Shown here: positions 11,089 through 61,717 of the stretch, in pieces
Layout of the letters: every line of letters begins with the position of its first letter
Position numbering within the stretch: position 1 is the first letter of the stretch
Origin: Natronosalvus rutilus
GTDB lineage: Archaea; Halobacteriota; Halobacteria; Halobacteriales; Natrialbaceae
Assembly: GCF_024204665.1 (NCBI RefSeq)
Contig: NZ_CP100355.1
Span: forward strand, 1,841,451-1,905,450
Length of the DNA stretch: 64,000 bases
Direction: 5' to 3'
Translations under genes and position numbers: made by a program
The notes under the pieces: generated by a model
Databases searched by the model: none
What the model saw: the letters and a program-made list of their open reading frames with translations, nothing else
What the model was told of the DNA's origin: nothing

Positions 11089-12534
11089 ATGAGCTACACG
11101 GGTCCAACGGACCTCTACATCGACGGCGAATGGGCCGACGGCGAAGACGGCGGGCAGATTGAGACGGTCGACCCCGCGAACGAGACGACCTACGCGACGG
11201 TCGCGGCGGCTGGCGAAGCAGACGTCGACGCCGCCGTGTCGGCGGCCGACGCCGCGCTTGAGCGCGGCAGCGAGTGGGCCTCACTCGACCCCGCCGAGCG
11301 GGCAGCTTACCTGCAGGCATTTGCGGACCTGCTCGAGGACTGGAAGGACGAAATCGCGCTCGTCGAATCACACGACAACGGCAAGACGCAGTTCGAGGCG
11401 ACCCTCGAGGTCGGGATGGTCATCGACACGTTCCGGTACTACGCCGGCTGGGCGGACAAGCTCGCGGGCGATCAGATTCCCGTCCCCGGCGACCGCCTCG
11501 ATTACACCATCCGAGAGCCCGTCGGCGTGACGGGCCACATCGTCCCGTGGAACTACCCGTTCCAGCTGGCGGGACGCAGCCTCGCTCCGGCGCTCGCCTG
11601 TGGCAACACCGCCGTGGTCAAGCCCTCGAGCCAGACGCCCCTCTCCGCGCTGTACTACGCGAAGGCCGCCGAGGAAGTCGGGCTTCCCGACGGCGTGCTC
11701 AACGTCGTCCCCGGCCGCGGGAGCGTCGCCGGAGCGGCGCTGGCCGAACACGAGGGCGTCGACCACGTGGCCTTCACTGGCAGTACGGAAATCGGCAAGC
11801 GCGTAATGGGTCAGGCCGCCGACAGCGTTACCGGCGTCACCCTCGAACTGGGTGGGAAAGGGCCAAACGTCATCTTCCCCGACGCGGACCTCGAGGCCGC
11901 ATCGAAGGGCGTCCACTACGGCATCTTCATGAACGCCGGGCAGATGTGCTGGGCTGGCTCCCGACTGGTCGTCCACGAGGACGTCCACGACGAAGTCGTC
12001 GAGAGTGTCGTCGCCGGCGCAGAGAACACGCCGCTCGGGAACGGCATCGACGACGACGCGCGGATGGGGCCGCTCGTCAGCGAGAGCCATCGAGACGAGG
12101 TCGCCGACTACGTCGACACCGCCCTGGAGGAGGGCGCGACCGTCGCGACCGGCGGCGAGGTCCCCGACCGGGAGGGCTACTTCCTCGAGCCGACCGTGTT
12201 GACCGACGTGACCAACGACATGACCGTCGCTCGCGAGGAGATTTTCGGGCCAGTGCTCTCGGTCATCGAGGTCGAGAGCGAGGAAGAGGCCCTCGACGTG
12301 GCCAACGACTCGCCGTACGGCCTGCTCGCCGGCGTCTGGACGAACGACCTCTCGCGGGCCCACCGCTTCGCCCGCGACCTCGAGTACGGGATGGTGAGCG
12401 TCAACGAGTATCCCGTCACTTTCCCGCAGACGCCGTTCGGCGGCGTCAAGGAGAGCGGCGAGGGCCGCGAGCAGGGCGCCGAAGCCATCGGCGAGTACAC
12501 GCAGGCGAAGAACGTGAACATCAACTTCGAGTAG
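11089..12534 (+). CDS. NAD(P)-dependent aldehyde dehydrogenase
   Basis: 481 residues, normal ALDH length. It oxidises an aldehyde to the acid. Catalytic Cys near residue 287 (NAGQMCWAGSR), general-base Glu near 254 (LELGGKGPN), cofactor loop FTGSTEIGKRV, the PWNYPF segment and the C-terminal EEIFGPVLSV are all present. It resembles betaine- or phenylacetaldehyde-type class 1/2 enzymes more than the ALDH half of PaaZ. Beside paaK and the paa operon the likely substrate is phenylacetaldehyde, giving phenylacetate, but that is inferred from neighbours only. Confidence 0.88.
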   Translation: MSYTGPTDLYIDGEWADGEDGGQIETVDPANETTYATVAAAGEADVDAAVSAADAALERGSEWASLDPAERAAYLQAFADLLEDWKDEIALVESHDNGKTQFEATLEVGMVIDTFRYYAGWADKLAGDQIPVPGDRLDYTIREPVGVTGHIVPWNYPFQLAGRSLAPALACGNTAVVKPSSQTPLSALYYAKAAEEVGLPDGVLNVVPGRGSVAGAALAEHEGVDHVAFTGSTEIGKRVMGQAADSVTGVTLELGGKGPNVIFPDADLEAASKGVHYGIFMNAGQMCWAGSRLVVHEDVHDEVVESVVAGAENTPLGNGIDDDARMGPLVSESHRDEVADYVDTALEEGATVATGGEVPDREGYFLEPTVLTDVTNDMTVAREEIFGPVLSVIEVESEEEALDVANDSPYGLLAGVWTNDLSRAHRFARDLEYGMVSVNEYPVTFPQTPFGGVKESGEGREQGAEAIGEYTQAKNVNINFE

Positions 12535-12588: not shown

Positions 12589-13872
12589 TCAGCGGTGGTC
12601 GTACACTCGCTTGACCTTCCCCACCTCAGTTCGCTCGATCGAGCCGTACGCCACGAGGTCCAGCGTATCGGGAGTCAACGAGAGCGTGCTCGAGATCGCC
12701 TCGAGCAACCGCTCGCGCAGGTCGTCTTCGTCCCCGTCGAACCCGCGCTCGAGTTCTACCGTCACCTCGAGGCGGTCCAGCGCGTCCTCGCGAGAGAGGT
12801 CGATCCGGTACTGGGGGGCGACGGCGTCGAACTCGAGGATTACGGCCTCGAGCTGGCTGGGGTAGAGGTTGACGCCGCGGACGATCAGCAGGTCGTCGGC
12901 GCGGCCAGTGACGCCGTCCATTCGGATCGTGGTTCGACCGCAGTCACAGGGCTCTTCGATCAGGGTGGTCATGTCGCCGGTCCGGTATCGAATCACGGGC
13001 AGGGCTTCCTTCGTGAGCGAGGTGAGGACGAGTTCGCCCTCCTCGCCTTCCGGCAGGGGCTCGCCGGAGTCGGGATCGATCACCTCGGGGTAGAAGTGGT
13101 CGGTCTGAACGTGAAGCCCGTCCTGGGCGTGGGCGCACTCGACGGCGACGCCGGGTCCGATCAGTTCCGAGAGGCCGTAGTTCTCGATTCCCGTGACCCC
13201 GAGGCGTTCCTCGATGGCCTCCCGCATTGGTTCGGTACAGGGTTCGGCGCCGTAGAGGACGACCGACAGCGGGAGTTCCCGCGGATCGACGCCCATCTGC
13301 TCGGCTCGTTCGGCGAAGTACAGCGCGTAGGAGGGCGTACAGCAGAGCGCGTCGCTCTCGAGGTCCGCGGCGAGTTCGACCTGGCGCTGGGTGTTGCCGC
13401 TGCTCGTCGGGATCACCGTCGCCCCGAGCGACTCCGCCCCGGCGTGGAAACCGAGGCCGCCCGTGAAGAGCCCGTAGCCGTAGGCGTTCTGGACCGTATC
13501 GCCCGCGTCGAGGCCGGCGGCCCGCATCGCTCGCTCCATTACCTCGTTCCAGACCTCAAGGTCGTCCGCGGTGTAGGCGACGATTTTCGGCTTTCCGGTG
13601 GTCCCCGAGGAGGCGTGGATGCGGACGACGTCCTCGTTGTCGACGGCGAACAGGCCGTCGGGATAGGTGTCTCGAAAGTCAGCTTTCTTGGTGAACGGCA
13701 GTTTGGTGACGTCCTCGAGCGTCTCGACGTCGTCCGTGGAAACGCCAGCCGCTGTAAGCCGCTCCTCGTAAAATGGGACGTTCTCGCGAACGCGTTCGAC
13801 AGTCTCACGGAGCCGCTTCGTCTGCAGTTCCCGGCGTTCCTCCCGCGGGAGCCGTTCGTCGGATGCGACCAT
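12589..13872 (-). CDS. paaK: Phenylacetate-CoA ligase
   Basis: 427 residues from ATG 13872. It activates phenylacetate with ATP and CoA to phenylacetyl-CoA, the first pathway step. Motifs of the AMP-forming family: P-loop HASSGTTGKPKI near residue 90, YGAEP, YGLSE near 235, and YRTGD near 302 with the ribose-binding Asp; the C-terminal lobe ends in GKVKRVYDHR. It follows the paa oxygenase genes on the same strand after a 150-bp gap, so it may be the last gene of the operon or have its own promoter (a TATAG-like element lies about 35 nt upstream). A second copy is at 18654. Confidence 0.93.
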   Translation of the reverse strand: MVASDERLPREERRELQTKRLRETVERVRENVPFYEERLTAAGVSTDDVETLEDVTKLPFTKKADFRDTYPDGLFAVDNEDVVRIHASSGTTGKPKIVAYTADDLEVWNEVMERAMRAAGLDAGDTVQNAYGYGLFTGGLGFHAGAESLGATVIPTSSGNTQRQVELAADLESDALCCTPSYALYFAERAEQMGVDPRELPLSVVLYGAEPCTEPMREAIEERLGVTGIENYGLSELIGPGVAVECAHAQDGLHVQTDHFYPEVIDPDSGEPLPEGEEGELVLTSLTKEALPVIRYRTGDMTTLIEEPCDCGRTTIRMDGVTGRADDLLIVRGVNLYPSQLEAVILEFDAVAPQYRIDLSREDALDRLEVTVELERGFDGDEDDLRERLLEAISSTLSLTPDTLDLVAYGSIERTEVGKVKRVYDHR

Positions 13873-14191: not shown

Positions 14192-14722
14192 TTAGACGCT
14201 CAACCCGAACTCCCGCAGGTCGGATCGGCCCTGTTCGGTCACCATCTCGATGGTCCAGCCGGGACTCCAGACGAGGCGGAGGTCGACCGACTCGACGCCG
14301 TCGACGTCCGCGACGGTCTCTCGAATCTCGTCCTGGAGCATGTCCCGTGCGGGACAGCCCGAGTACGTCAGGGTCATGTCGACGGTCGCGTGGCCGTCCT
14401 CGACTACGAGTCCGTAGATCAGGCCGAGGTCGACGATGCTGACCGGCATCTCGGGATCCTCGACCCCGTAGAGGGCGTCCCAGACGGCGGCCTCGACGCC
14501 CGTCGCGCCCTCGCCGGTCGCCGGGAGGTCCTCGACGGTCTCGCCGGATCGGTAGTCGGTGTACGAACATGGGGTCGCCTCGTTCTCGGCGTCTAGGTCC
14601 GGGTCGTACTGCGCTCCCGCCTCGAAGTCGTCGTCGGTTCCGTCGACTCCTTCGGTCGGTGGGTCGGCCTCGAGCGCGGCATCGGCGTCAACGTCGACAT
14701 CGGATGGTGTGTTACGGTTCAT
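14192..14722 (-). CDS. paaD: Phenylacetyl-CoA epoxidase subunit PaaD (DUF59 part)
   Basis: 176 residues. An acidic N-terminal extension of about 80 residues, low in complexity, precedes a DUF59/MIP18 domain: AVWDALYGVEDPEMPVSIVD, then LGLIYGLVVE, then LTYSGCPARDMLQDEI with the conserved Cys. PaaD belongs to the SUF-related assembly family and is needed to mature the diiron oxygenase. Unlike bacterial PaaD it stops after the DUF59 domain (LREFGLSV); the missing zinc ribbon is encoded by the next gene. Transcribed with paaABC. Confidence 0.9.
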   Translation of the reverse strand: MNRNTPSDVDVDADAALEADPPTEGVDGTDDDFEAGAQYDPDLDAENEATPCSYTDYRSGETVEDLPATGEGATGVEAAVWDALYGVEDPEMPVSIVDLGLIYGLVVEDGHATVDMTLTYSGCPARDMLQDEIRETVADVDGVESVDLRLVWSPGWTIEMVTEQGRSDLREFGLSV

Positions 14723-14766
14723 TGTGGTTGGTAGCAGTGGGTACGGGGTACGGGTGCCTGGAGGCG

Positions 14767-15621
14767 TTACTCCGGTTTCTCCATGATCTTGGTCGCCCCC
14801 GAGCGACCCAGTTCGCGGTAGGTGCTGGTGAACTCCTCGCGGAGGTCCGCCCAGGCGTCGGTGTGGTCGCCGTCGCGCCCGCGCGGAACGTCCGGATCGA
14901 GGTCGAGGACGTCGTCCTCGCCGATCGGCACGTCGAGTCCCAGTCCCTCGAGGAACGGTACGACCTCGCTCGCCCAGTCGGTGGCCAACTCCTCGAGCGT
15001 GGCGTCGCGGAAGCCGGCTTCCTCGATCGTCGCCTCGGTCTCATCGTCGACGGGGGCGAACAGGGTCAGTGCGTACGGGAAGAGCCGGTCGACGGCCTGC
15101 TGGAGGCGTTCTCGACCGCCGTCGTCTGCGTCGTCGTCAGCCAGCCGTTCCATCCAGTTCTGGGCGTGTTCCAAGTGGTAGCGCTCCTCGGCCTGGATCT
15201 TGCCGACACGGTCGGCGAGTTTCGGGTACGCCGAGTCCTCGAGCGCCTCGAGGCGGCGCTTCTCCGCCACGTCGTAGAGGTAGTGACGGACGATGGCGTC
15301 GGCCCAGTCGCCCCCGGGGAACGGCCGTTCGACGAGGGTGCTGTGGCGCCAGGCGTCGGCCTCGCGCTCGTAGATGAGTTCGTGTTCCTCGTAGCCCAGG
15401 TCCTCGAGCACGTCGTACCAGAGGCGGGCGTGACCGAGTTCGTCCTGGGCGTTGTTCGACAGCGCGAGGTCGGACTCGAGGGTGGGCGAGCGGACCTGCC
15501 ACTCGGTGTAGCGCTCGGCGAGGACGAACTCGTCGTCCGCCAGCCGGAGCAACAGCGCCTCGAGCGCGTCTCGTTCGTCGGCCGAGAGGTCGTCGGCCGT
15601 CACGGATTCGGCACTCGCCAT
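14767..15621 (-). CDS. paaC: Phenylacetyl-CoA epoxidase subunit PaaC
   Basis: 284 residues from ATG 15621, whose first base is the last base of the paaB stop (TGATG). It is the structural ferritin-like partner of PaaA in the 1,2-phenylacetyl-CoA epoxidase. Helices carry QDELGHARLWYDVLED near residue 60 and EERYHLEHAQNWMERL near 145, the two E..H helix pairs typical of PaaA/PaaC. In the known enzyme PaaC has degenerate iron ligands and stabilises PaaA. Length is normal (about 250) with a short C-terminal extension. Confidence 0.92.
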   Translation of the reverse strand: MASAESVTADDLSADERDALEALLLRLADDEFVLAERYTEWQVRSPTLESDLALSNNAQDELGHARLWYDVLEDLGYEEHELIYEREADAWRHSTLVERPFPGGDWADAIVRHYLYDVAEKRRLEALEDSAYPKLADRVGKIQAEERYHLEHAQNWMERLADDDADDGGRERLQQAVDRLFPYALTLFAPVDDETEATIEEAGFRDATLEELATDWASEVVPFLEGLGLDVPIGEDDVLDLDPDVPRGRDGDHTDAWADLREEFTSTYRELGRSGATKIMEKPE

Positions 15622-15950
15622 CAGTCGTCACCCTGCGCTTTCGAGCGCTGTCGTTCGGCGGCTTCCTGTTCCTTGTCCGATTCGATGACCTCGGCGGCGT
15701 GATCGACGTCGGACTTGTAGGTCGGCCCCCAGCGGTAGCTCTTGTCGGTCGTGCCGCCGAAGGAAGTCTCGTCGGCGTCGATCTCCGCGACCTCTTCCTT
15801 CGGGACGACCCAGAGGCTGTTGGTCGCCTTGCGCCGGCCGTGCTGGATGGCCGCGAACTGCCTGGCCATCTCGCGGTCGGGCGCGTGGACGTTGCCGCAG
15901 TGGGTGTGGTACCCACCTTGCTCTTCCTGTCGGAATACTTCCCAGATCAT
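15621..15950 (-). CDS. paaB: Phenylacetyl-CoA epoxidase subunit PaaB
   Basis: 109 residues. Starts MIWEVFRQEEQGGYHTHCG, the characteristic PaaB opening (in bacteria WEVFVR...H.HVGS), then APDREMARQFAAIQH and SLWVVPKEEV. PaaB bridges the PaaAC heterodimers of the multicomponent epoxidase. The family ends near residue 95; the Lys/Glu tail here is a small extension. It sits two bases after paaA and overlaps paaC by one base. Confidence 0.92.
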   Translation of the reverse strand: MIWEVFRQEEQGGYHTHCGNVHAPDREMARQFAAIQHGRRKATNSLWVVPKEEVAEIDADETSFGGTTDKSYRWGPTYKSDVDHAAEVIESDKEQEAAERQRSKAQGDD

Positions 15951-15952
15951 GG

Positions 15953-16891
15953 TCAGTCAGCCGCCTGTGGTTTCGGGCTGCCCGCCGGTCGGTTCTCCCA
16001 TTCGAGGCTGTCGCGGACCCACTGGACGGCGTCCTGGGCCTGCTTGCGGCCGTCGATCTGGCCGAGACCCGGCTCGTAGTCGTTCTTCGCGATCTGGAAG
16101 AACTCGTCCCAGTCCAGGTCGTCCTCGACGACCTCGTAGCCGCTGTCGGTCTCGCGGATACGTGGCTCGTCGGGGATCTCGAGGCCGTAACGCTCGGCCT
16201 TTGGGATGTACTCCCGGAGGAACATCGAGCGCAGGTCGTCGTTGGACTGCGCTTTGAGCCCCACTGCGGCGGAGAAGTCGTGGTGGGTACTCTTGTCGTT
16301 GGTCGGCCCGAAGAACTGGATGATCCGGGGCCACCAGGTCTCGAAGGCCTCCTGGGTCATCTCCTGTTCCTTCTTCGAGCCGGTCATCAGCTCCGCGAGG
16401 ATGCTCTCGCCGTGTTTGACGTGGAACCCCTCCTCGAAGCACACCTTGTCCATGGCGTGGGCGTAGGGCTCCCAGCTGGTGCGTCGCAGCGTCGCCTGGC
16501 GGCGCATCGCGGCGCCGTCGACGAAGAAGGCGATCATCGGCGTCTCGACCCAGCTGTCCATCGGGTAGTGGAAGCAGTTGAGGAACTTCCCCTTCCCGTT
16601 GGCCAGGTCGTCGAGCATCTCTTCGCGCGTCTTCACGCCCAGCGACTCAGCCGCGCGGTAGAGCAACTGCCCGTGGCCGATCTCGTCCTGTACCTTCGCC
16701 GAGAAGGCCAGTTTGCGGTCGATACTCGGTGCCTGTCGAATGAACGGCCGCTCGAGGTACGCCCCCATGATCTCGCTGTTGGCGTGGAACTCGATCATCC
16801 GGGTGGCGGCCTCCCGGTACTCGAGGGGCATGTCGTCCGCGGGGCTGAACTCCCGCGGCCCGGCCCGTTCTTTGACGGTGTCGATGTCCAT
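15953..16891 (-). CDS. paaA: Phenylacetyl-CoA epoxidase catalytic subunit PaaA
   Basis: 312 residues from ATG 16891; usual length. It is the diiron oxygenase that forms ring-1,2-epoxyphenylacetyl-CoA. Iron-binding helices are recognisable: a Glu in NSEIMGAYLERPFIRQ near residue 38, QDEIGHGQLLYRAAE near 70 with E-x2-H, and CFEEGFHVKHGESI near 150 with a second E-x2-H. First gene of the paaABCD-zinc ribbon operon; a bat-type regulator is transcribed away from it 87 bp upstream. Confidence 0.94.
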   Translation of the reverse strand: MDIDTVKERAGPREFSPADDMPLEYREAATRMIEFHANSEIMGAYLERPFIRQAPSIDRKLAFSAKVQDEIGHGQLLYRAAESLGVKTREEMLDDLANGKGKFLNCFHYPMDSWVETPMIAFFVDGAAMRRQATLRRTSWEPYAHAMDKVCFEEGFHVKHGESILAELMTGSKKEQEMTQEAFETWWPRIIQFFGPTNDKSTHHDFSAAVGLKAQSNDDLRSMFLREYIPKAERYGLEIPDEPRIRETDSGYEVVEDDLDWDEFFQIAKNDYEPGLGQIDGRKQAQDAVQWVRDSLEWENRPAGSPKPQAAD

Positions 16892-18653: not shown

Positions 18654-19940
18654 TCAGCGGTGGTCGTAGACGCGCTTGACCTTCCCGACTTCCGTCCGCT
18701 CGATGCCGCCAGGCTCCTCGATCGTGAGGGTATCCGGGGTGAACGAGAGCACGTTCTGAAGGCGGGTGAGCACCCGGTCGCGCAGTTCCTCGCGGTCGCC
18801 CTCGAAGTCGTGCTCGCACTCGATAGTGATCTCGAGGGTGTCCAGGTTGTTCACTCTGTCCAGGTCGATCCGGTAGTGAGGCGCCACCTCGTCGAACTCG
18901 AGGACGACGTCCTCGACCTCGCTCGGGTAGAAGTTGACCCCGCGGATGATCACGAGGTCGTCGGAGCGACCGGTGACGTTGTCCATGCGGATCGTGGTGC
19001 GTCCGCACTCACACTCCCCGCTCGAGAGCGTCGTCAGGTCGCCCGTCCGGTACCGGAGGACGGGCAGGGCCTCCTTCGAGAGCGTCGTGAGGACGAGTTC
19101 GCCCTCCTCGCCTTCCGGCAGGGGCTCGCCGGTCTCGGGATCGACGACCTCGGGGTAGAATCGGTCCTCGTGGATGTGCAGCCCCTCCTGAGCCTCCGCG
19201 CACTCGATGGAGACGCCGGGGCCGACGATCTCGGAGAGACCGTAGATGTCGATTCCCTTGACGCCGAGGCGTTCCTCGATGGCCTCGCGCATCGGGTCCG
19301 TGCAGGGTTCGGCACCGAAGATGACCACCCGTAGCGGGAGGTCCTTGATGTCGACGCCCATGTCGTCCGCGGTCTCGGCGAGGTACAGCGCGTAGGAGGG
19401 CGTGCAGGCGATGGCGTCGCTTCCGAGGTCCTCGAGCATCTCGACCTGGCGCTGGGTGTTGCCGCCGCCGATCGGGATCACGGTTGCGCCCAGTTCCTCG
19501 ACGCCGTAGTGGAGCCCGAGACCGCCCGTGAAGAGCCCGTAGCCGTAGGCGTTCTGAACCGTATCGCCCGCGCCGAGGCCAGCAGCCTCGAGGCACCGGG
19601 CCACGGCGTCGCTCCAGACGTCCACGTCGTTCTGCGTGTAGGAGACGATCTTCGGCTTCCCCGTGGTTCCCGAGGAGGCGTGGATCCGGACGATATCCTC
19701 GTTGTCGACGGCGAACAGGCCGTCGGGGTACTCGTCGCGGAAGTCCTCCTTCGTCGTGAAGGGGAGCTTCGTGATGTCGTCGACCGTCTCGATGTCGTCG
19801 GGGGTGAGTCCGGCGTCCTCGAGTGCCTCTCGATAGTGGTCGACGTTCTCGTAGGCGTTTCGCACCGTTTCCTGTAAGCGTTCGTTCTGGCACTCCCGGA
19901 GTTCACTCCGCGGAGCGGTCTCTATTGCCTGGTAGGCCAT
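18654..19940 (-). CDS. paaK: Phenylacetate-CoA ligase, second copy
   Basis: 428 residues from ATG 19940 (MAYQAIETAPRSELRE); the frame is open 10 codons more. Strong similarity to the ligase at 12589 along its length: HASSGTTGKPKIVSYT, FGAEPCTDPMREAIEERLG, YGLSEIVGPGVS, YRTGDLTTL and the same last residues GKVKRVYDHR. It also forms aryl-acyl-CoA. Two copies in 7 kb may reflect different substrates (phenylacetate and a hydroxyphenylacetate or other aryl acid) or different regulation. Paralogy is seen; division of labour is inferred. Confidence 0.92.
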   Translation of the reverse strand: MAYQAIETAPRSELRECQNERLQETVRNAYENVDHYREALEDAGLTPDDIETVDDITKLPFTTKEDFRDEYPDGLFAVDNEDIVRIHASSGTTGKPKIVSYTQNDVDVWSDAVARCLEAAGLGAGDTVQNAYGYGLFTGGLGLHYGVEELGATVIPIGGGNTQRQVEMLEDLGSDAIACTPSYALYLAETADDMGVDIKDLPLRVVIFGAEPCTDPMREAIEERLGVKGIDIYGLSEIVGPGVSIECAEAQEGLHIHEDRFYPEVVDPETGEPLPEGEEGELVLTTLSKEALPVLRYRTGDLTTLSSGECECGRTTIRMDNVTGRSDDLVIIRGVNFYPSEVEDVVLEFDEVAPHYRIDLDRVNNLDTLEITIECEHDFEGDREELRDRVLTRLQNVLSFTPDTLTIEEPGGIERTEVGKVKRVYDHR

Positions 19941-20073
19941 CTCATCTCCCTCTCTGGAGTGGGGCACCAAAAATTATGTGGTAGGCACAAATCACCCACG
20001 GCGTCGGGGGAACGGAACGCCCGTCGATGGTGACAGCGACTCGACTCGAGCGGAGACTGCCAGGGTCCGAAGC

Positions 20074-20103: not shown

Positions 20104-21276
20104 ATGCGGGACGTCTACGTCATCGGCGCTGGACAGACCGCCTTCGGTTCGTTCCCGGAGCGAGGCTACCGGGAGCTGTTCGCGGAGGCGTACGCGGCCG
20201 CGAGAGACCGGGTCGACCACGGCCTGGACACGGACGACGTCGACGAGGCGGTCGTCGCCACCCTCGGCGTCGGCGGCCGCCAGATCGGTCTCTCCGGACC
20301 GGCCGTCACGGAACACGTCGGGCTCCACAACGTGCCCTGCTCGCGGATCGAAAACGCCTGCGGGGCGGGCGGCTTCGCCGTCCGCCAGGGCGTCCAGGCG
20401 ATCAAGAGCGGCATGGCCGACGTCGTCCTCGCGGGCGGCTTCGAGGTCATGACCGACATGTCCGGCGACACCACGAAGTACTGGCTCGGCGTCTCCGGGG
20501 AAACCGAGTGGGAACGGCTCACCGGCACCACCTTTTCTGGAGTGTACGCCCAGATGGCCAGCGCCTACCTGGACGCCTACGACGCGACCCCCGAGGACCT
20601 CTCGAGAGTCGCGGTCAAGAATCACGCCAACGGCGCGAAGAACCCGAAGGCCCACCTCGGCTTCGAGTGCTCGCTCGAAGACGCCGTTGCGGCGCCGGCG
20701 GTCGCCGACCCCCTCAATCTCTACCACTGCTGTCCGACCTCCGACGGGGCCGCCGCGGTCCTCCTCGCGAGCGAGGACGTCGTGGCCGAGTACACCGACG
20801 AGCGCGTTCGCGTCGCGGGCGTCGGCGCGGCCAGCGAGCGGGTCGGCCTCGCGGAACGCGACAGCTACACGAGTATCTCGGCCTCTCAGGAGGCGGGGAA
20901 GCGAGCCTACGAACGAGCGAGAATCGGCCCCGACGACCTGGACTTCGCCGAGGTCCACGACTGCTTCGCCATCGCGGAACTCATCGCCTACGAGGACCTG
21001 GGCTTTTGCGAACCCGGGGAAGCGCCGCAACTCCTCCGCGAGGGCGTCACCGACCCGAACGGCGACCTCCCGGTCAACACCTCCGGCGGCCTCAAGTCGA
21101 AAGGTCACCCCATCGGTGCGACCGGCACCGGGCAGGTCGTCGAGGTCTTCGATCAACTGACCGGGAACGCGGGCGACCGCCAGCTCGAGGACCCGCGCTA
21201 CGGCCTCACCCACAACGTGGGCGGGAGCGGCGGCGCGACGGCAGTCCATATCTTCGAGCAGGAGGTGGCGCGATGA
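20104..21276 (+). CDS. Thiolase-family acetyl-CoA acetyltransferase (archaeal/SCP-x type)
   Basis: 390 residues. Thiolase fold with acyl-accepting Cys in SRIENACGAGGFAV near residue 85, EVHDCFAIAE near 285, the base motif SGGLKSKGHPIGATG near 340, and HNVGGSGGATAVHIF at the end. This is the archaeal thiolase subtype that in other archaea forms a complex with an HMG-CoA-synthase-like protein and a DUF35 protein. The next gene fuses exactly those two and overlaps it by ATGA, so both proteins are probably one complex. It would make or cleave a 3-ketoacyl-CoA. Confidence 0.88.
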   Translation: MRDVYVIGAGQTAFGSFPERGYRELFAEAYAAARDRVDHGLDTDDVDEAVVATLGVGGRQIGLSGPAVTEHVGLHNVPCSRIENACGAGGFAVRQGVQAIKSGMADVVLAGGFEVMTDMSGDTTKYWLGVSGETEWERLTGTTFSGVYAQMASAYLDAYDATPEDLSRVAVKNHANGAKNPKAHLGFECSLEDAVAAPAVADPLNLYHCCPTSDGAAAVLLASEDVVAEYTDERVRVAGVGAASERVGLAERDSYTSISASQEAGKRAYERARIGPDDLDFAEVHDCFAIAELIAYEDLGFCEPGEAPQLLREGVTDPNGDLPVNTSGGLKSKGHPIGATGTGQVVEVFDQLTGNAGDRQLEDPRYGLTHNVGGSGGATAVHIFEQEVAR

Positions 21277-22787
21277 CCGCGTCTCGAGCAGACGACGTGA
21301 CCGGCGAGGCGGGCGAAGAAACGAACCGCCTCGGTATTGCCGGGGTCGGCGCGTACGCTCCCGGCTACCGACTCACTGCGGAGGCCGTCACGGAAGCCTG
21401 GGGGCAGTTCCAGGGCGCCGGCATCTCCGAGACGGCCGTCCCGGCGGGCGACGAAGATACGTTGACGATGGCCTACGAGGCCGCCCAACGGGCGCTCGAG
21501 GTCGCGGACGCCGAGCCCGGAACCATCACCCACCTCCTCCTCGGCACGACCACGCCACCCTACGAAGAGGAGGCGCTGGGGCCGCGCCTGGCCAGCTTCC
21601 TCGGACTCACCTCGTCGCTCGAGAGCCGCCAGTTCACCGGTAGCACCCGCGTCGGTGCCGACGCACTCCGGACGGGCCTCGAAACTACGACCGACGGCGC
21701 CGTCTTGGTCGTCGCCAGCGACGCCCCACGTGGCGCCCCCTCTGACGAACACGAGCACGCGGGTGGGGCGGGCGCCGCCGCGCTCGTCTTGACGCCCGAC
21801 GGCCCTGGAAGAATCACGGACGCCGGTGAGTTCGTCGACGCCGTTCCCGGAACCCGATTCCGGGAAGCGGGTTCGAGGGAAACGACCGGCCTCGACATTA
21901 CGCAGTACGACCGGGACGCCTACACCGACGCCGTCGCGTCGGCCGCAGACGGGCTCGCCCCCTCTCTCGAGGACGTCGACGCCGTCTGCCTCCAGTCGCC
22001 GAACGGCAAACTGCCCTACCGTGCCGCGGGCGCGCTGGGGGTCGACGCCGAACGGATCCAGGCGGGGACGACCGTCCACGACCTCGGGGACACGGGCGCC
22101 ACGAGCACCCTCCTCGGGCTCGCGAAGGCTCTCGAGGCCGACCACCGCTCGCTCGGCCTGGTCGCGTACGGGTCGGGCGGTGGCGCGATTGCGATGCGCC
22201 TCGAGGTGGGCGGGAGCGACGTAGGAGGCGACCCCAACACGAGCGACAGCGTCCCCGTCGAAACCGCGCTCGAGGGCGACCGAACGCTCTCCTACGGCGA
22301 GTACCTCCGCATCCGCGGCGACGTGACGCCCGGCGAACCCGACGGCGGCGGCGCCTACGTCAGCGTCCCCAGCTGGAAACGGACGATGGCCCAGCGCCAC
22401 CGCCTCGTCGCGGGCCGCTGTCGGGAGTGCGGGCGGCTCGCGTTCCCGCCTTCCGGTGCGTGTCGGGAGTGCGGAACGCTCGACGAGTACGACGACGTCG
22501 AACTCCCCGGGACGGGAACCGTCGAAGCCGCGACCGTGATCGGCCAGGGCGGCGCCCCACCGGAGTTCGTCGAGCAGCAGGCCCGCGACGGCGCGTTCGT
22601 CAGCGCTGTCGTGGCACTCGAGGGACCCGAACCCGACGACGAGCCCGTTTCGACCCCCACGCAGGTACTGACGCCCGACACGGACGCCGTCTCCGTTGGC
22701 GACCGCGTCGACGCGACGATCCGGCGGATCTACACCCAGGAGGGCGTGACCCGGTACGGATTCAAGATGCAACTGCTCGAGTCTTGA
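21273..22787 (+). CDS. HMG-CoA synthase-like protein fused to a DUF35 zinc-ribbon/OB domain, catalytic residues missing
   Basis: 504 residues from ATG 21273. Residues 20-340 have the thiolase-fold layout of archaeal HMG-CoA synthase (GIAGVGAYAPGYRL at the start; KLPYRAAGALG; LGDTGATSTLLGLAKALE). Residues 375-500 are a DUF35 module with zinc ribbon CRECG...CRECG and an OB fold. The nucleophile loop reads FTGSTRVGADAL (Thr125 where Cys is expected) and the His loop reads LQSPNGK (Gln241 where His is expected). It is therefore probably a non-catalytic scaffold or acyl-CoA binding partner of the upstream thiolase. Residue assignments come from motif comparison by eye. Confidence 0.8.
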   Translation: MTASRADDVTGEAGEETNRLGIAGVGAYAPGYRLTAEAVTEAWGQFQGAGISETAVPAGDEDTLTMAYEAAQRALEVADAEPGTITHLLLGTTTPPYEEEALGPRLASFLGLTSSLESRQFTGSTRVGADALRTGLETTTDGAVLVVASDAPRGAPSDEHEHAGGAGAAALVLTPDGPGRITDAGEFVDAVPGTRFREAGSRETTGLDITQYDRDAYTDAVASAADGLAPSLEDVDAVCLQSPNGKLPYRAAGALGVDAERIQAGTTVHDLGDTGATSTLLGLAKALEADHRSLGLVAYGSGGGAIAMRLEVGGSDVGGDPNTSDSVPVETALEGDRTLSYGEYLRIRGDVTPGEPDGGGAYVSVPSWKRTMAQRHRLVAGRCRECGRLAFPPSGACRECGTLDEYDDVELPGTGTVEAATVIGQGGAPPEFVEQQARDGAFVSAVVALEGPEPDDEPVSTPTQVLTPDTDAVSVGDRVDATIRRIYTQEGVTRYGFKMQLLES

Positions 22788-22866: not shown

Positions 22867-24009
22867 TCACTCCCGCTCGAAGACGACGGCGACGCCCTGG
22901 CCGAACCCGACGCACATCGTCGCGAGACCGTAGCGGCCGTCGCGGCGAGCGAGTTCGTGGAGCAGGGTCGTTGTAATGCGGGCGCCGGAGCAGCCGAGCG
23001 GGTGGCCGAGTGCGATGGCGCCGCCGTTGGCGTTCAGTTTGTCCTCGTCGAACCCGATTTCGTCGGCGCAGTAGAGACTCTGGGAGGCGAACGCTTCGTT
23101 GAGTTCAACGAGGTCCAGGTCCGAAACCGAGAGCTCGGCGGCCTCGAGCGCCTGCCTTGTGGCGGGAACCGGCCCCGTCCCCATCACAGTCGGGTCGACG
23201 CCGGCGACGCCGCGAGCGCCGACGCTTGCCAGGACCTCGAGACCGTGTTCCTCGGCGTACTCACGACTCGTGACGAGCATCCCTGCGGCACCGTCGGTTA
23301 GCGGGGAGGCGTTGCCGGGCGTCACGGTGGCCGCGTCGTCGTCCGCGAACACTGTGGGCAGGCCGGCGAGGGTCTCGAGGTCGGTGTCAGGGCGGGGACC
23401 CTCGTCTGTCTCGACTGTCCCGTCCGCTGTTTTCACTGGGACGACCTCGTCGTCGAACCGACCCTCCTCCCACGCCTCGAGCGCGCGTTCGTGGGATCGA
23501 AGCGCGAACGCGTCCTGGTCTGCCCGCGAAATATCGTATCGCCTGGCGACCCGTTCGGCGGTCGCGCCCATCGGCAGGTCGTCGGCATCGTAGCGCTCCT
23601 CGATACCGGGGTGGAGCCAACTCGAGAACGGGATCCGGCTCATGTGTTCGACGCCGGCGACGGGGTAGACGTCGCCGTCGCCGGTTTCGACGGCCCGGAC
23701 GGCGTCGACGAGCGTCGTCAGCGAGGAGCCACAGAGCCGCGTCGTCGTGGCTCCCGGCACGGTCTCCGGGAAGCCGCCGGCGAGCAGCGACTGGCGAGCC
23801 AGGTTCCGCCCCTGTTCGTTCTCCTGGTTGGCACAGCCGAGTCGGAAGTCGTCCCACTCCTCGGCGGGGACTCCCGTGCGTTCGACCAGCGCCTCCAGGA
23901 CGGTCACGACGAGGTCCTCGGGGTAGGTCTCGGCGAGTCCGCCGTCCTTGCGTCCCTGTGGCGTCCGTACGGCGTCGACGATAACGGCGTCGGCGTCGGC
24001 GTCTGTCAT
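22867..24009 (-). CDS. Acetyl-CoA C-acyltransferase (FadA/PaaJ-type thiolase)
   Basis: 380 residues from ATG 24009 (MTDADADAVIVDAVRTPQGR). Classic degradative thiolase: nucleophile TTRLCGSSLTTL near residue 88, GGAIALGHPLGCSGAR with the base His near 340, and MCVGFGQGVAVVFERE with the second Cys at the end. It splits 3-ketoacyl-CoA to acetyl-CoA and a shorter acyl-CoA; here it could serve 3-oxoadipyl-CoA (PaaJ) or ordinary beta-oxidation. Divergent from the 3-hydroxyacyl-CoA dehydrogenase gene with 168 bp between starts. Confidence 0.92.
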   Translation of the reverse strand: MTDADADAVIVDAVRTPQGRKDGGLAETYPEDLVVTVLEALVERTGVPAEEWDDFRLGCANQENEQGRNLARQSLLAGGFPETVPGATTTRLCGSSLTTLVDAVRAVETGDGDVYPVAGVEHMSRIPFSSWLHPGIEERYDADDLPMGATAERVARRYDISRADQDAFALRSHERALEAWEEGRFDDEVVPVKTADGTVETDEGPRPDTDLETLAGLPTVFADDDAATVTPGNASPLTDGAAGMLVTSREYAEEHGLEVLASVGARGVAGVDPTVMGTGPVPATRQALEAAELSVSDLDLVELNEAFASQSLYCADEIGFDEDKLNANGGAIALGHPLGCSGARITTTLLHELARRDGRYGLATMCVGFGQGVAVVFERE

Positions 24010-24177
24010 CACGAGGGTGGTCGGACGGTCGGGGGTTAAGCGTTTGGCTCCCTGCAGTGGTCGCCGGTCTTGCGGGGCCGGAGCGGCGACAACGACCTGG
24101 CGCGCAGGGTTGTTCGCCACGCCGAACGTATCGCCCGAACGGAAACGGCTTTCACACAGCCCCGTAAACCCCGACAC

Positions 24178-25098
24178 ATGCGAGTCGCAGTACTCGGCGC
24201 CGGCACCATGGGCCACGGCATCGCCCAGGTGACGGCCATGGCGGGCCACGACGTGACCGTGCGAGACATCGAAACCGAATACGTCGAGAACGGTCTCGAG
24301 TCCATCGAGGCCAACCTCGAGGGCGGCATCGAACGCGACAAGGTCACCCGCGAGGAGGCCGACGCCGCGCTCGAGCGCCTCTCGGGAACGACGGATCTCG
24401 CGGACGCCGTCGAGGGCGCGGACCTCGTGATCGAGGCCGTTCCGGAGGACATCGACCTCAAGACGGGAACGCTCGAGGACGTAGAGGCACTCGTCGACGA
24501 CGAGACGATCGTCGCGACGAACACCTCCTCGCTGTCGATCACGGAAATCGCGAGCGTCGCCGAGCGCGACGGACGGGTGATCGGCCTGCACTTCTTCAAC
24601 CCGGTCCACATCATGGGGCTGGTCGAGATCGTCGTCGCCGAACAGACTGACGACGACACCGTCCAATTCGCTCACGAGTTCGTCGACAATATCGGCAAGA
24701 CGCCGGTCGAAGTGACCGACTCTCCCGGGTTTGCCTCCTCGAGACTCGGCGTCGCCCTCGGCGTCGAAGCGATCCGGATGGTCCAGGAAGGGGTCGCCGA
24801 CCCGCGAGACGTCGACGCGGCGATGGAGCTCGGCTACAACCACCCGATGGGTCCCATCGAACTCGGCGACGTGGTCGGTCTCGACGTTCGCCTGGACATC
24901 CTCGAGTACCTGCGCGAGGAACTCGGCGAGCGGTTCAGGCCACCCCAGGCGCTCAAGCGGAAGGTGCGCGCCGGCAAGTTAGGCAAGAAGACCGGCGAGG
25001 GCTTTTACGTCTGGGAGGACGGCGAGATCGTGGGGGTCAGCGGCGAGTACGAGGGTGACGACGGCGAAGACGGTGACGACCGCGGAGGGGCGAACTGA
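24178..25098 (+). CDS. 3-hydroxyacyl-CoA dehydrogenase
   Basis: 306 residues from ATG 24178. NAD-binding GAGTMGHGIAQ at the N-terminus, NTSSLSITEIA near 120, the active-site His in GLHFFNPVHIM near 142, the hinge GFASSRLGV and the C-terminal YNHPMGPIELGDVVGLD and GEGFYVW. It oxidises 3-hydroxyacyl-CoA to 3-ketoacyl-CoA, matching PaaH in phenylacetate breakdown or FadB's dehydrogenase part. The last 20 residues are an Asp/Gly-rich acidic tail. Its stop overlaps the hydratase start (TGATG). Confidence 0.93.
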   Translation: MRVAVLGAGTMGHGIAQVTAMAGHDVTVRDIETEYVENGLESIEANLEGGIERDKVTREEADAALERLSGTTDLADAVEGADLVIEAVPEDIDLKTGTLEDVEALVDDETIVATNTSSLSITEIASVAERDGRVIGLHFFNPVHIMGLVEIVVAEQTDDDTVQFAHEFVDNIGKTPVEVTDSPGFASSRLGVALGVEAIRMVQEGVADPRDVDAAMELGYNHPMGPIELGDVVGLDVRLDILEYLREELGERFRPPQALKRKVRAGKLGKKTGEGFYVWEDGEIVGVSGEYEGDDGEDGDDRGGAN

Positions 25099-25940
25099 TG
25101 CTCCCCGACGAACCCGTCGACGGCGCCGAGGACGTCGACGCCGCGGCCGAGGACTGCGACCTGGTCCACGCGAGCGTCGGCTACCGCGTGCCCGGCGTCG
25201 CGACCGTCACGATCGACCGCCCGGACGCCCGAAACGCGCTCAACGCGCAGGTTCGGCGCGAGTTGAAGGAGATCGCGGCCGCCATCGCCGAGAGCGACGT
25301 TCGCGTCGTCGTCCTCACGGGCGCTGACGAGGCGAAGGCGTTCGTCGCCGGCGCCGACGTCGGCGAGTTTCGGGATCGGAGCGCACTCGAGCAGCGCGAA
25401 ATCTCGAAGCGCCCCCGCGTCTACGAAGTAATCGACGACCTTCCACAGCCGGTAATCGGGCGGCTCAACGGCCACGCGCTGGGAGGGGGCTGCGAACTCG
25501 CCCAGGCCTGTGACGTGCGCATCGCCCACGAGCGGGCGAAGATCGGCCAGCCGGAGATCAACCTCGGGATCATGCCCGGTGGCGGCGGCACCCAGCGTCT
25601 CCCCCGCCTCGTCGGCGAGGGCCAGGCGATGCGCCTGATCCTCTCGGGCGACCTGATCGACGCCGCGGAGGCGCTCGAGATCGGTCTCGTCGATGTCGTC
25701 TGTGGAGACGCCGAGGAACTGGACGAGGAGGTCTACGGGCTCGCCGAATCGATGGCCGAGCAGAGTCCCGTCGCCCTCGAGCTGGCCAAGACCGCCGTCA
25801 AGGCGGCTTCGCGGACCGACCTCGAGCAGGGCATCGAGTACGAGGCCGAACTGTTCGCCCAGTTGTTCGGAACCGCGGACAAAAACGAGGGGATCGACGC
25901 GTTCTTCGAGGATCGCGAGCCGGAGTGGACGGGCGAATGA
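25098..25940 (+). CDS. Enoyl-CoA hydratase/isomerase
   Basis: 280 residues from ATG 25098, overlapping the dehydrogenase stop by one base. Crotonase fold after a 35-residue acidic N-terminal extension: oxyanion hole residues in ADEAKAFVAGADVGEF and HALGGGCELAQACDV, catalytic Glu in QPEINLGIMPGGGGTQRL. It hydrates 2-enoyl-CoA. With the dehydrogenase beside it this forms a separated FadB-like pair, and could act as PaaF/PaaG. The long extension is unusual for the family; an internal start is possible but no better ATG follows at the family boundary. Confidence 0.9.
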   Translation: MLPDEPVDGAEDVDAAAEDCDLVHASVGYRVPGVATVTIDRPDARNALNAQVRRELKEIAAAIAESDVRVVVLTGADEAKAFVAGADVGEFRDRSALEQREISKRPRVYEVIDDLPQPVIGRLNGHALGGGCELAQACDVRIAHERAKIGQPEINLGIMPGGGGTQRLPRLVGEGQAMRLILSGDLIDAAEALEIGLVDVVCGDAEELDEEVYGLAESMAEQSPVALELAKTAVKAASRTDLEQGIEYEAELFAQLFGTADKNEGIDAFFEDREPEWTGE

Positions 25941-27432: not shown

Positions 27433-27894
27433 ATGGCATACAGCTACGAGCCACACTACTTCGAAGACTTCGAAGTGGGACAGACCTTCGAGAGCGTCGG
27501 CCGAACCGTGACCGAGTCCGACTTCGTCCTCCACTCGATGTTCACCGGCGACTGGACCGAACTCCACACGAACCGCCACTTTGCCGAGGAGGGTCACTTC
27601 GACGGGCGGGTCGCTCACGGCCCGATGACGTTCTCGCTGGCGACCGGGTTCGTCTACCGCTGTGGCATCGTCGAGCGGACGGTCTACGCCTTCCTCGGTA
27701 TGAACTACATGAACATCCCCAACCCAGTCTACATGGACGACACCATCGAACTCGACATGGAGGTCACCGAGAAGCGCGAACTCTCGAGCAAGGACGACGC
27801 GGGTCTGGTGACGATCGATACCACCATGACGAACCAGGAGGACGACGTGGTGTTCGAGGGCGACATGAAGTTCCTCATCAAGCGCCAGGAATAA
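27433..27894 (+). CDS. MaoC-family enoyl-CoA hydratase (hotdog fold)
   Basis: 153 residues. R-specific hydratase type: YFEDFEVGQTFESVGRTVTESD at the start, the hydratase loop FTGDWTELHTNRHFAEEGHF with the catalytic Asp and His near residues 39-50, and GRVAHGPMTFSLATGF. It hydrates 2-enoyl-CoA, or opens a cyclic enoyl-CoA as the MaoC half of PaaZ does. It is monocistronic just ahead of the ABC importer operon, with its own operator-like promoter. Confidence 0.9.
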   Translation: MAYSYEPHYFEDFEVGQTFESVGRTVTESDFVLHSMFTGDWTELHTNRHFAEEGHFDGRVAHGPMTFSLATGFVYRCGIVERTVYAFLGMNYMNIPNPVYMDDTIELDMEVTEKRELSSKDDAGLVTIDTTMTNQEDDVVFEGDMKFLIKRQE

Positions 27895-40592: not shown

Positions 40593-41648
40593 ATGGTACA
40601 CGGGAAGATGTCTGCGTCCGGCCACGAACAGGTAACGCACTTCGTCGACGACGAAACCGGCCTCGAGGCGATCGTCGCCATCCACGACACGACGCTCGGT
40701 CCCTCCCTCGGTGGCACCCGACTCCTGCCCTACGAGAGCCACGACGCCGCCCTGCGCGACGTCATGCGCCTCTCGCGCGCGATGACCTACAAGGCGGCCG
40801 CCGCGGACCTCGACCTGGGCGGCGGGAAGGCCGTCATCCGCGCCGATCCGACCGAGAAGACCGAGGACCTGATGGCCGCCTACGGGCGAATGATCGACCG
40901 ACTCGGCGGGTACTACATCACCTCCGTCGACGTCAACACCGGCGTCGCGGACATGGACGTGATCGCGGGCGAAACCGACCACGTCGTCGGAACCAGCGCA
41001 GGACTCGGAGACCCCTCGCCGATCACGTCTCGCGGCGTCTTCGAGGGGCTTCGGGCCTGCGTCGAGGCCACCTACGGGACGCCGGACGTGGACGGCCTCT
41101 CCGTCGTCGTCCAGGGCGTCGGGAAAGTCGGCAGCGGCCTCGCCGAACTCCTCGACGAGCACGGTGCCGAGGTCGCGGTGAGCGACATCGACGAGGAGGC
41201 GACGGCCGCGCTCGCCCGCGAGTACGGCTTCGAGACCGTCGCCCCCTCCGCCGTCTACGAACAGCCCTGTGACGTCTTCGCCCCCTGTGCGATCGGCGGC
41301 GTCGTCAACGACGAGACGGTTCCCCAACTCGAGTGCGACATCGTTGCCGGTGGGGCGAACAACATCCTCGACGAGCGAGCCCACGCGCAGGCGCTTCGCG
41401 ACCGGGACATTCTCTACGCGCCTGATTACGTGCTCAACGCAGGCGGCCTGATCACCGTCGCGGCCGAACACACCGGCGACACGCGAGAACAGGCGCTCGC
41501 CGACGCGATGGCCATCGGCGACCGGACCCGGACGCTCATCGAGCGCGCGGACGCCGAGGACGTGACCATCCTCGAGGCCGCGGATCGGTACGCGCTCGAG
41601 CGGATCGAGGCGGCGAGAGCCGAGGCGACGTCTCCGTCGTCTAGGTAG
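40593..41648 (+). CDS. Leu/Phe/Val-type amino-acid dehydrogenase
   Basis: 351 residues from ATG 40593; an ATG at 40608 is also possible. It oxidatively deaminates an amino acid to a 2-oxo acid with NAD. The dimerisation/catalytic part has GPSLGGTRLLPYESHDAALR, the substrate Lys in AMTYKAAAADLDLGGGKAVI (two lysines, about residues 69 and 81) and TSVDVNTGVADMD; the NAD domain has VVVQGVGKVGSGLAELL near 170. Length matches leucine and phenylalanine dehydrogenases rather than the about 420-residue Glu enzymes. Substrate specificity is not resolvable. Confidence 0.9.
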   Translation: MVHGKMSASGHEQVTHFVDDETGLEAIVAIHDTTLGPSLGGTRLLPYESHDAALRDVMRLSRAMTYKAAAADLDLGGGKAVIRADPTEKTEDLMAAYGRMIDRLGGYYITSVDVNTGVADMDVIAGETDHVVGTSAGLGDPSPITSRGVFEGLRACVEATYGTPDVDGLSVVVQGVGKVGSGLAELLDEHGAEVAVSDIDEEATAALAREYGFETVAPSAVYEQPCDVFAPCAIGGVVNDETVPQLECDIVAGGANNILDERAHAQALRDRDILYAPDYVLNAGGLITVAAEHTGDTREQALADAMAIGDRTRTLIERADAEDVTILEAADRYALERIEAARAEATSPSSR

Positions 41649-59853: not shown

Positions 59854-60005
59854 GTCGTCGAAATGGCGTTCTCGGACGGCTGTTCGGAGTCGGCCAGAAC
59901 CGCTCGTGGAGTGAGCGGATTCGTTCGTGCCAGTTCACTTCCTAGCGATGATCCTCCGACCATCTCACCGACACCCACGTCTCCCTATCCGACTGGAGTA
60001 AACGA

Positions 60006-60027
60006 CCACGGGCGCGGTGGCCCGTGG
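60006..60027. repeat. Hairpin at the 3' end of the TnpB element
   Basis: CCACGGGC and GCCCGTGG, 8 bp perfect, loop GCGGTG, 20 nt past the TnpB stop. In IS200/IS605 elements the right end folds into such a hairpin and encodes the guide RNA scaffold, so this may be what remains of it. Confidence 0.55.
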
Positions 60028-60046
60028 CTTTTGTTGTTCCCTCAGC

Positions 60047-61224
60047 CTACGTCGTAAGCACTCCACGCGAAGCGATGTCGCGGGATGAGGTTGGGCGGTT
60101 TACAGAGCGCCCCGACCCAGACAGGCTCACCTTCCGAACAAACGGTTGGGTTTTGCGAGTCCGGTAATTAACCGATTCAACGTCGACGCCAGCGTGTTTC
60201 GCCCACGCTCGCCACGCCACATTCACACTCGCGTTTCGGTCAGCGTGGTCTTGCTGAACCTCGCACGAATCATTCGTGCAACGGAACCGCCGACCTTGGC
60301 GGTAGCCACGGTGTCCGCAGCACGAACACGACTTCGAGTTGTACGGAGACTCAACCGTCTCACACGGAATCTGGTTCCACGTCGCTTTGTATCGAACTTG
60401 TTGCTCGAACTTGTGGAACGGCAGTTTGTGCAGACGACGGTTCATGTACGTGCCGTACTTGATGGCGTCTCGAATCCCACTCAAGTCCTCGAACACAATA
60501 ACAGGGTTCGAGAATTGTTGGGCAAACTCGACCACGACTCGGGACATACGGTGAAGAATCCACACTCAGTGTAGCGTTCTTCTTTCTCCCCGAGTTGGTG
60601 GTGGATGGAGTGTTGGCCGTGTTCTTGACAGCGTTTGGTGATGGTGTGGTAGCGTTGGCGTTCGGCTTTCACAGAGCCATAATCAAGCACGAGTGTTCCG
60701 AGCGTGCCCATCGTCTCACGGTTAAGAGCGGTGAGAGCGATGTTGCGCTCGTTAATATCGACGCCGACGAGTGTGTCAGTGTCTTCAGGTTCAGGCACTT
60801 CGACTTCTGTTTTAACCGTGACGTGTAGGTAGTACACGCCATCTCGGTACAGAAGTTCGGCCTGCCCCAACGACCACTCATCTTCGGTCAAGGCGGATTC
60901 GATGAGGTGGAGGTCTTCCGGTCGCCCACGAAGGTGCCCTTTCACCTTCTTGTACGGCTTCGGACTCACACGGAACTGAATACGGCCCGTCTCGTCGTTG
61001 TAGGTGAGTCGGTAGCCTTCGGTGTGTGCCATGACGAGCGGGTATGCTCCTTTCTTGTTCGTGGCGGGTGGCGACGGTTTCCCAACGTTGGTGTCGTCTT
61101 GGCCGTGCCACCAGTTGAGGAGTTCTTTGTAGGAGTCCCACGCTTGCAGGGCTTTCCCGACGACCGCGCACCGACCTGCCGAGCGCCAATGGCGACGTTG
61201 TTTCCGACGAGGAGTTAAACCCAC
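60047..61224 (-). pseudogene. tnpB: TnpB (IS200/IS605 family), frameshifted
   Basis: TnpB is an RNA-guided RuvC-type nuclease carried by this insertion family. An N-terminal segment (61224 to about 60570) has the RuvC Asp in LVGVDINERNIALTAL; the C-terminal segment (about 60565-60047) has the Glu in VIVFEDLSGIRD, a zinc finger SCSCCGHRGY...CTNDSCEV and the last Asp in HADRNASVN. The two are in different frames, joined around 60565-60575 (EKEERYTE / WILHRMSR). Upstream of 61224 the sequence continues in a third frame (TLSVVNLAFQGEGFYRPVEP near 61300), so there may be a second break. Likely inactive unless frameshifting occurs. No TnpA gene is next to it. Confidence 0.82.
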
Positions 61225-61645: not shown

Positions 61646-61717
61646 TGGACTCGCCGGGATTTGAACCCGGGGCCTCTTCCTTGCGAAGGAAGCGATCTGC
61701 CACTGATCTACGAGCCC
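61646..61717 (-). tRNA. tRNA-Ala, anticodon CGC
   Basis: 72 nt. Acceptor GGGCTCG pairs with CGAGTCC (one G-U) plus discriminator A. Anticodon stem CTTCC/GGAAG carries loop TTCGCAA, so anticodon CGC reads GCG (Ala). T arm CCGGG/CCCGG with TTCAAAT loop. D arm GATC/GATC. CCA not encoded. No intron. Confidence 0.95.

Follow-up and report, generated by a model that had tools for sequence, protein, structure and literature searches.

Our analysis highlights a gene pair of Natronosalvus rutilus in which a catalytically intact thiolase is accompanied by a single chain that joins an HMG-CoA synthase (HMGS)-like domain to a DUF35 domain and has lost the catalytic residues of the synthase. Because these residues are lost and the pair sits among phenylacetate-degradation genes, the usual annotation of the fused partner as an HMG-CoA synthase is misleading, and the chain is probably a structural helper. 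We consider it reasonably likely that the two chains constitute one beta-ketothiolase, with the fused chain acting as a scaffold and CoA-site subunit, which carries out phenylacetate thiolysis in this genome. The system adds to the known thiolase/HMGS-like/DUF35 architecture a version in which the HMGS-like part, besides being dead and fused, is old, widely distributed and linked to catabolism. If our reading is right, the pair is a candidate thiolase for phenylacetate catabolism in haloarchaea, represents an enzyme that turned into a non-catalytic subunit and is conserved as such from genus to genus, and takes the architecture into catabolism, beyond mevalonate synthesis and phloroglucinol acylation. 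The stretch of DNA analysed, here called the window, comprises 64,000 nucleotides of contig NZ_CP100355.1 (1,841,451-1,905,450; G000:C1:1841451-1905450), and its relevant features are collected in Table 1.

Table 1. Features of the pair and its neighbourhood, in window positions.
Feature	Position	Strand	Basis or remarks
PaaD (phenylacetyl-CoA epoxidase)	14192-14722	-	above NCBIfam cut-off; PaaA-D span 14192-16891
PaaC (phenylacetyl-CoA epoxidase)	14767-15621	-	above NCBIfam cut-off
PaaB (phenylacetyl-CoA epoxidase)	15621-15950	-	position; conserved between paaC and paaA in relatives
PaaA (phenylacetyl-CoA epoxidase)	15953-16891	-	above NCBIfam cut-off
PaaK, phenylacetate-CoA ligase	18654-19970	-	NF041878, above cut-off
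SCP2/archaeal-type thiolase, 390 aa	20104-21276	+	catalytically intact; 6esq_A match, E 4e-86
Fusion protein, 504 aa: HMGS-like domain, then DUF35	21273-22787	+	profile matches; AlphaFold2 model
HMGS-like domain, residues 19-350	21327-22322	+	Glu to Thr93, Cys to Thr125, His to Gln241, Asn to Asp273
DUF35: zinc ribbon (Cys383/Cys386/Cys397/Cys400) and OB fold	22386-22784	+	GGAPPEF loop
Second, conventional thiolase (FadA/PcaF-like)	22867-24006	-	profile matches
3-Hydroxyacyl-CoA dehydrogenase, PaaH-like	24070-25098	+	profile matches
Enoyl-CoA hydratase, PaaF/PaaG-like	25098-25940	+	profile matches
MaoC-type hydratase, like the C-terminal domain of PaaZ	27433-27894	+	profile match

Architecture of the thiolase and its fused partner

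The original prediction described a thiolase gene overlapping a gene that encodes HMGS-like and DUF35 parts in one chain, and both coordinates and reading frames proved correct, the thiolase stop overlapping the fusion start (ATG at 21273) by four bases (ATGA). The closest match of the thiolase is the archaeal acetoacetyl-CoA thiolase 6esq_A, and PcaF/PaaJ models are absent from the best 25 profile matches listed for it. Its catalytic residues, namely Cys86, the H285-D-C287-F motif and a GHPIGATG motif containing His335, occupy positions common to 6esq_A, and the motifs N-A-C86, H-D-C-F and GHPIGATG are present in every one of the paired thiolases (78/78).

The fused partner matches the HMGS models at scores far under their cut-offs, with 174.6 bits to NF003274 over residues 19-350 (cut-off 244) and 113.7 bits to the archaeal HMGS model TIGR00748 (cut-off 353). 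Profiles for zf-ChsH2 and OB_ChsH2_C match residues 372-483 within a DUF35 part of about residues 372-500; PF12172 scores 34.4 bits, above its cut-off, and PF01796 scores 25.1 bits in the protein scan (cut-off 27.1) and 27.2 bits in the genome search. All 51 fusion sequences examined keep the four zinc-ribbon cysteines of DUF35. By sequence, the best PDB matches of the fusion are 6esq_I (HMGS), 5m3k_A (PhlA) and 6esq_E (DUF35). An AlphaFold2 model built from 51 homologues (pLDDT 87.6, pTM 0.89) indicates that the HMGS-like domain has the fold of an archaeal HMG-CoA synthase; Foldseek places 6esq_I first among PDB entries (E 1.5e-23, TM 0.85 by target length), followed by PhlA of the PhlACB-type acyltransferases as the next-best structural match.

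Loss of the synthase active site

Three alignment methods (phmmer, MAFFT and hhalign profile-profile) agree that Cys114 of 6esq aligns with Thr125 and the catalytic His with Gln241, which confirms the substitutions first noticed in the sequence, and all three further align Glu82 of 6esq with Thr93 and the Asn of GNTYS with Asp273. Across 51 fused homologues, the Glu column holds Thr in 42 and Ser in 9, the Cys column Thr in 50 and Ala in 1, with Cys in none, and the His column Gln in 42, His in 8 and Thr in 1, while Asp273 is found at the Asn column in 51/51; the P-N/D-G-K-L-P-Y-R loop is mostly retained in these domains. An alternative active-site loop with a conserved Cys and His, the finding named at the outset as counting against the prediction, was looked for column by column in the HMGS-like domains of the 51 homologues and not found: Cys reaches at most 22/51 in any column and is conserved in none, and the best His column, 162 (45/51), lies outside the aligned catalytic columns. 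A hidden active site was therefore rejected, and so was a pseudogene or sequencing error, as the frame is open and the same substitutions run throughout the aligned homologues. Since the substitutions are kept in the homologues while the motifs of the paired thiolases remain complete, loss of HMGS catalysis cannot be equated with decay; rather, one active site has been fixed as lost and that of its partner fixed as kept. One haloarchaeal fusion clade (L095-L102) retains the catalytic His, with the Cys replaced by Thr or Ala, a pattern that is consistent with the Cys having been lost first.

The search for a separate, intact HMG-CoA synthase in the same genome was successful. A haloarchaeal-type enzyme with Glu, Cys and His motifs is encoded at G000:C1:2310762 and scores 873.7 bits against NF041302 (cut-off 800). 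With the catalytic residues absent from the fusion and an intact haloarchaeal HMGS encoded elsewhere, we rejected the fusion as the HMG-CoA synthase of the mevalonate pathway. Three more thiolase/DUF35 pairs, all without an HMGS-like domain, are present in this genome.

Genomic distribution and linkage to phenylacetate genes

The suggestion that the surrounding genes point to degradation was supported. The neighbours in this window are indeed phenylacetate genes, so the linkage that a PaaJ-type function calls for is observed, with thiolysis of 3-oxoadipyl-CoA predicted; however, the pair also occurs outside phenylacetate clusters, 54 of the 238 carriers being without PaaA. Counting against a role as phenylacetate thiolase is the conventional thiolase that adjoins the pair in this window. 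An aldehyde dehydrogenase lies at 11089-12534 of the window, and this enzyme and the MaoC-type hydratase may together replace the two-domain PaaZ.

At a carriage cut-off of E<=1e-100, the fusion was found in 238 of the 392 genomes sampled from the order (about 60%) and the epoxidase subunit PaaA in 200; both are present in 184 genomes, the fusion only in 54, PaaA only in 16 and neither in 138 (Fisher p about 1e-41, with genomes counted without correction for relatedness). A weaker match exists in 5 of the 16 genomes with PaaA only; G088, G256 and G344 have an unfused form in which the HMGS-like gene is followed directly by a DUF35 gene. Unfused versions are represented by loci L106-L110 and L111, where a separate DUF35 gene comes directly after the dead HMGS-like gene and the thiolase lies upstream. 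A natural single chain combining thiolase, HMGS and DUF35 was sought and none was found, the long frame of L078 encoding the fusion only, with the thiolase in a separate frame.

Examination of 45 loci with wide flanks placed a thiolase gene immediately upstream of the fusion, on the same strand, in all of them. A core paa gene (PaaA/B/C/D/K) lies within about 10 kb in 21 of these loci and in none of the other 24; a second, conventional thiolase is nearby in 13 of the 21 paa-associated loci and absent from the vicinity in 8. Genes for a 3-hydroxyacyl-CoA dehydrogenase and an enoyl-CoA hydratase are found near the pair in 27/45 loci, and at several loci the pair stands alone with unrelated genes around it. 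This last arrangement, together with the carriers that have no PaaA, means that the use of the pair is wider than phenylacetate. The paa cluster of Haloferax alexandrinus contains no thiolase other than the pair. In H. mediterranei (ATCC 33500; pair E6P09_RS16140-16145), the fusion gene is separated from the dehydrogenase gene by that of a conventional thiolase (E6P09_RS16150), the same arrangement as in this window. Transcriptome data for H. alexandrinus record that silver co-induces the fusion gene with paaABCDHIJK, in a study that labels the gene pksG/HMG-CoA synthase and reads its induction as membrane biogenesis (PMC10694973); through its place between paaH and paaJ, we matched this pksG to the fusion at L174:14971-16539. 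In the literature searched, we found no description of the fusion or of its placement in phenylacetate catabolism.

Relatives outside the haloarchaea

A phylogeny of 78 HMGS domains unites the true archaeal synthases in one group (support 98/97) and sets apart from them, across a 98/98 branch, the dead HMGS-like chains found in haloarchaea, in other archaea and in bacteria. PhlA falls with the true synthases relative to this branch, though its own branch is long, which suggests that PhlA may have lost its catalytic residues independently of the fusion family. The bacterial representatives are dead HMGS-DUF35 fusions (L171:5995-7377, L172:5992-7437 and L173:6007-7497), each followed by a thiolase gene. 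Two of the three, those of L171 and L173, are located in ring-hydroxylating dioxygenase clusters. Seen by organism, the Rhodococcus and Variovorax fusions adjoin genes for enoyl-CoA hydratases as well as ring-hydroxylating dioxygenases, and the Novosphingobium fusion sits amid short-chain dehydrogenases. Gln occupies the Cys column in two of the three bacterial fusions; among other ketosynthases, Gln replacing Cys marks decarboxylases. Other archaea of the same phylum (L154, L155 and L157) have fusions in which DUF35 precedes HMGS and both the Cys and the His of the active site are kept (QFACKAAT, HSPN/HAPN); in contrast to the dead family, these are apparently active single-chain synthases.

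Comparison with known thiolase assemblies

The archaeal thiolase/HMGS/DUF35 complex (6ESQ) contains the same three domain families, supplies the closest PDB sequences for each part and the top structural match for the fusion model, and shares a DUF35 with a Cys4 zinc ribbon and OB fold. In this complex, DUF35 joins thiolase and synthase around a shared CoA site (PMC12329534). The N. rutilus pair differs in that its HMGS-like and DUF35 parts are one chain from which Glu, Cys and His are lost, so that an intact thiolase is matched with a dead HMGS-like domain where the 6ESQ-type complex pairs an active thiolase with an active HMGS. Its thiolase gene precedes the fusion gene, where the genes of the mevalonate complex run HMGS-thiolase-DUF35, and its setting is one of aromatic degradation instead of mevalonate synthesis.

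The Friedel-Crafts acylases PhlACB/PpATase and CsATase (5M3K, 9SKH) resemble the pair in having an active thiolase-like subunit, an HMGS-like subunit in which the same columns have lost their catalytic residues, and a DUF35-type subunit; PhlA carries Cys83 at the Glu column, Gly115 at the Cys column, Gln at the His column and Asp at the Asn column. All chemistry of PhlACB takes place in the thiolase-like PhlC, PhlA being without the Cys and Glu (Gly115, Cys83), and activity depends on expression of the whole operon, PhlA included (PMC6392133). PhlACB differs in being encoded by three separate genes and in catalyzing CoA-free acyl transfer to phenols, and as it has lost CoA-binding residues it is an incomplete model for a CoA-dependent thiolase. 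The alpha/beta-type beta-ketothiolases BktB and PhaA of Haloferax mediterranei also couple a thiolase, as alpha subunit, to an OB-fold partner; this beta subunit is indispensable, and the catalytic residues are given as Ser-His-His (PMC7137286). No HMGS-like domain is described there, in contrast to the fusion, and the thiolases paired with the fusion have Cys86 throughout (78/78). The benzoylsuccinyl-CoA thiolase BbsAB and the Ltp2-ChsH2 and Sal-Shy aldolases are likewise enzymes of degradation pathways in which a thiolase fold is joined by a DUF35 partner. They are without an HMGS-like subunit, and for Ltp2 and Sal it is the hydratase partner that carries the DUF35 domain.

Proposed function and alternative explanations

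From the analysis as a whole, a scaffold or binding-subunit role for a thiolase of a degradation cluster is the best-supported reading. We infer that the two chains form a complex, that the fused chain has a role at the CoA site and that the substrate comes from phenylacetate breakdown. The thiolase subunit would perform all of the chemistry through Cys86, His285/Cys287 and His335, and the pseudo-HMGS and DUF35 domains would hold thiolase dimers in an assembly like those of the archaeal thiolase/HMGS/DUF35 complex and PhlACB. The fused chain would most likely be indispensable as a scaffold and would also complete the CoA-binding cleft of the thiolase, a role proposed by analogy with PhlACB, the BktB/PhaA beta subunit and the archaeal mevalonate complex, and fusion of its two domains would set them in a fixed ratio. 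Its task would be that of PaaJ, converting 3-oxoadipyl-CoA and/or 3-oxo-5,6-dehydrosuberyl-CoA into a shorter acyl-CoA and acetyl-CoA.

The pair might instead be a general beta-ketothiolase, supplying acetoacetyl-CoA for mevalonate or PHA synthesis or acting in fatty-acyl beta-oxidation, with its location among paa genes incidental in many genomes. The kinship of the thiolase with 6esq_A, the PaaA-less carriers (54/238) and the subfamilies that stand alone amid unrelated genes all fit such a role, yet we regard it as unlikely given the strong co-occurrence with PaaA, the linkage to PaaK and to PaaH/PaaF-like genes, and the co-induction with paa genes; the three further thiolase/DUF35 pairs of the genome could moreover cover general duties. 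We give less weight still to a role on aromatic acyl-CoAs, whether as a side-chain thiolase, such as one that turns 3-oxo-4-phenylbutyryl-CoA into phenylacetyl-CoA, or as an acyltransferase, such as a C-acyl transferase like PhlACB. The aromatic substrates of the PhlACB and BbsAB relatives and the dioxygenase clusters around two bacterial fusions would suit this role, and the conventional thiolase of the window could handle the ring-derived steps; against this, the pair is the sole nearby thiolase in several paa clusters, so that it would be needed for those steps, and the dehydrogenase and hydratase downstream match PaaH and PaaF.

That the HMGS-like domain retains an enzymatic activity based on other residues, with Thr125 as nucleophile or by decarboxylation, we hold to be very improbable. 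Although Thr125 is almost invariant (50/51), the P-N/D-G-K-L-P-Y-R loop largely persists and Gln stands in for the Cys in two bacterial fusions, the Glu, Cys, His and Asn are all substituted, a conserved Cys is missing, as is a conserved His at any catalytic column, and in PhlACB the reaction is confined to the thiolase-like subunit. We know of no precedent for Thr as a nucleophile in the thiolase superfamily. A bolder version of the preferred scaffold reading, which we put forward only tentatively and consider unlikely as it stands, is that the ancient dead-HMGS family of archaea and bacteria, mostly fused to DUF35, is a dedicated substrate- and CoA-handling subunit for thiolases of aromatic degradation, the emptied pocket of which binds ring-cleavage intermediates or passes them between thiolytic steps.

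Other features of the window

A second PaaK-like ligase at 12589-13872 (-) shares 69% identity with the PaaK of Table 1. A dehydrogenase at 40593-41648 (+) is closest to the tryptophan dehydrogenase ScyB, at 371 bits (cut-off 600). The Rfam family sot2652, a sense overlapping transcript RNA, matches at 59978-60168 (-) with 111 bits, and a tRNA is located at 61646-61717 (-).
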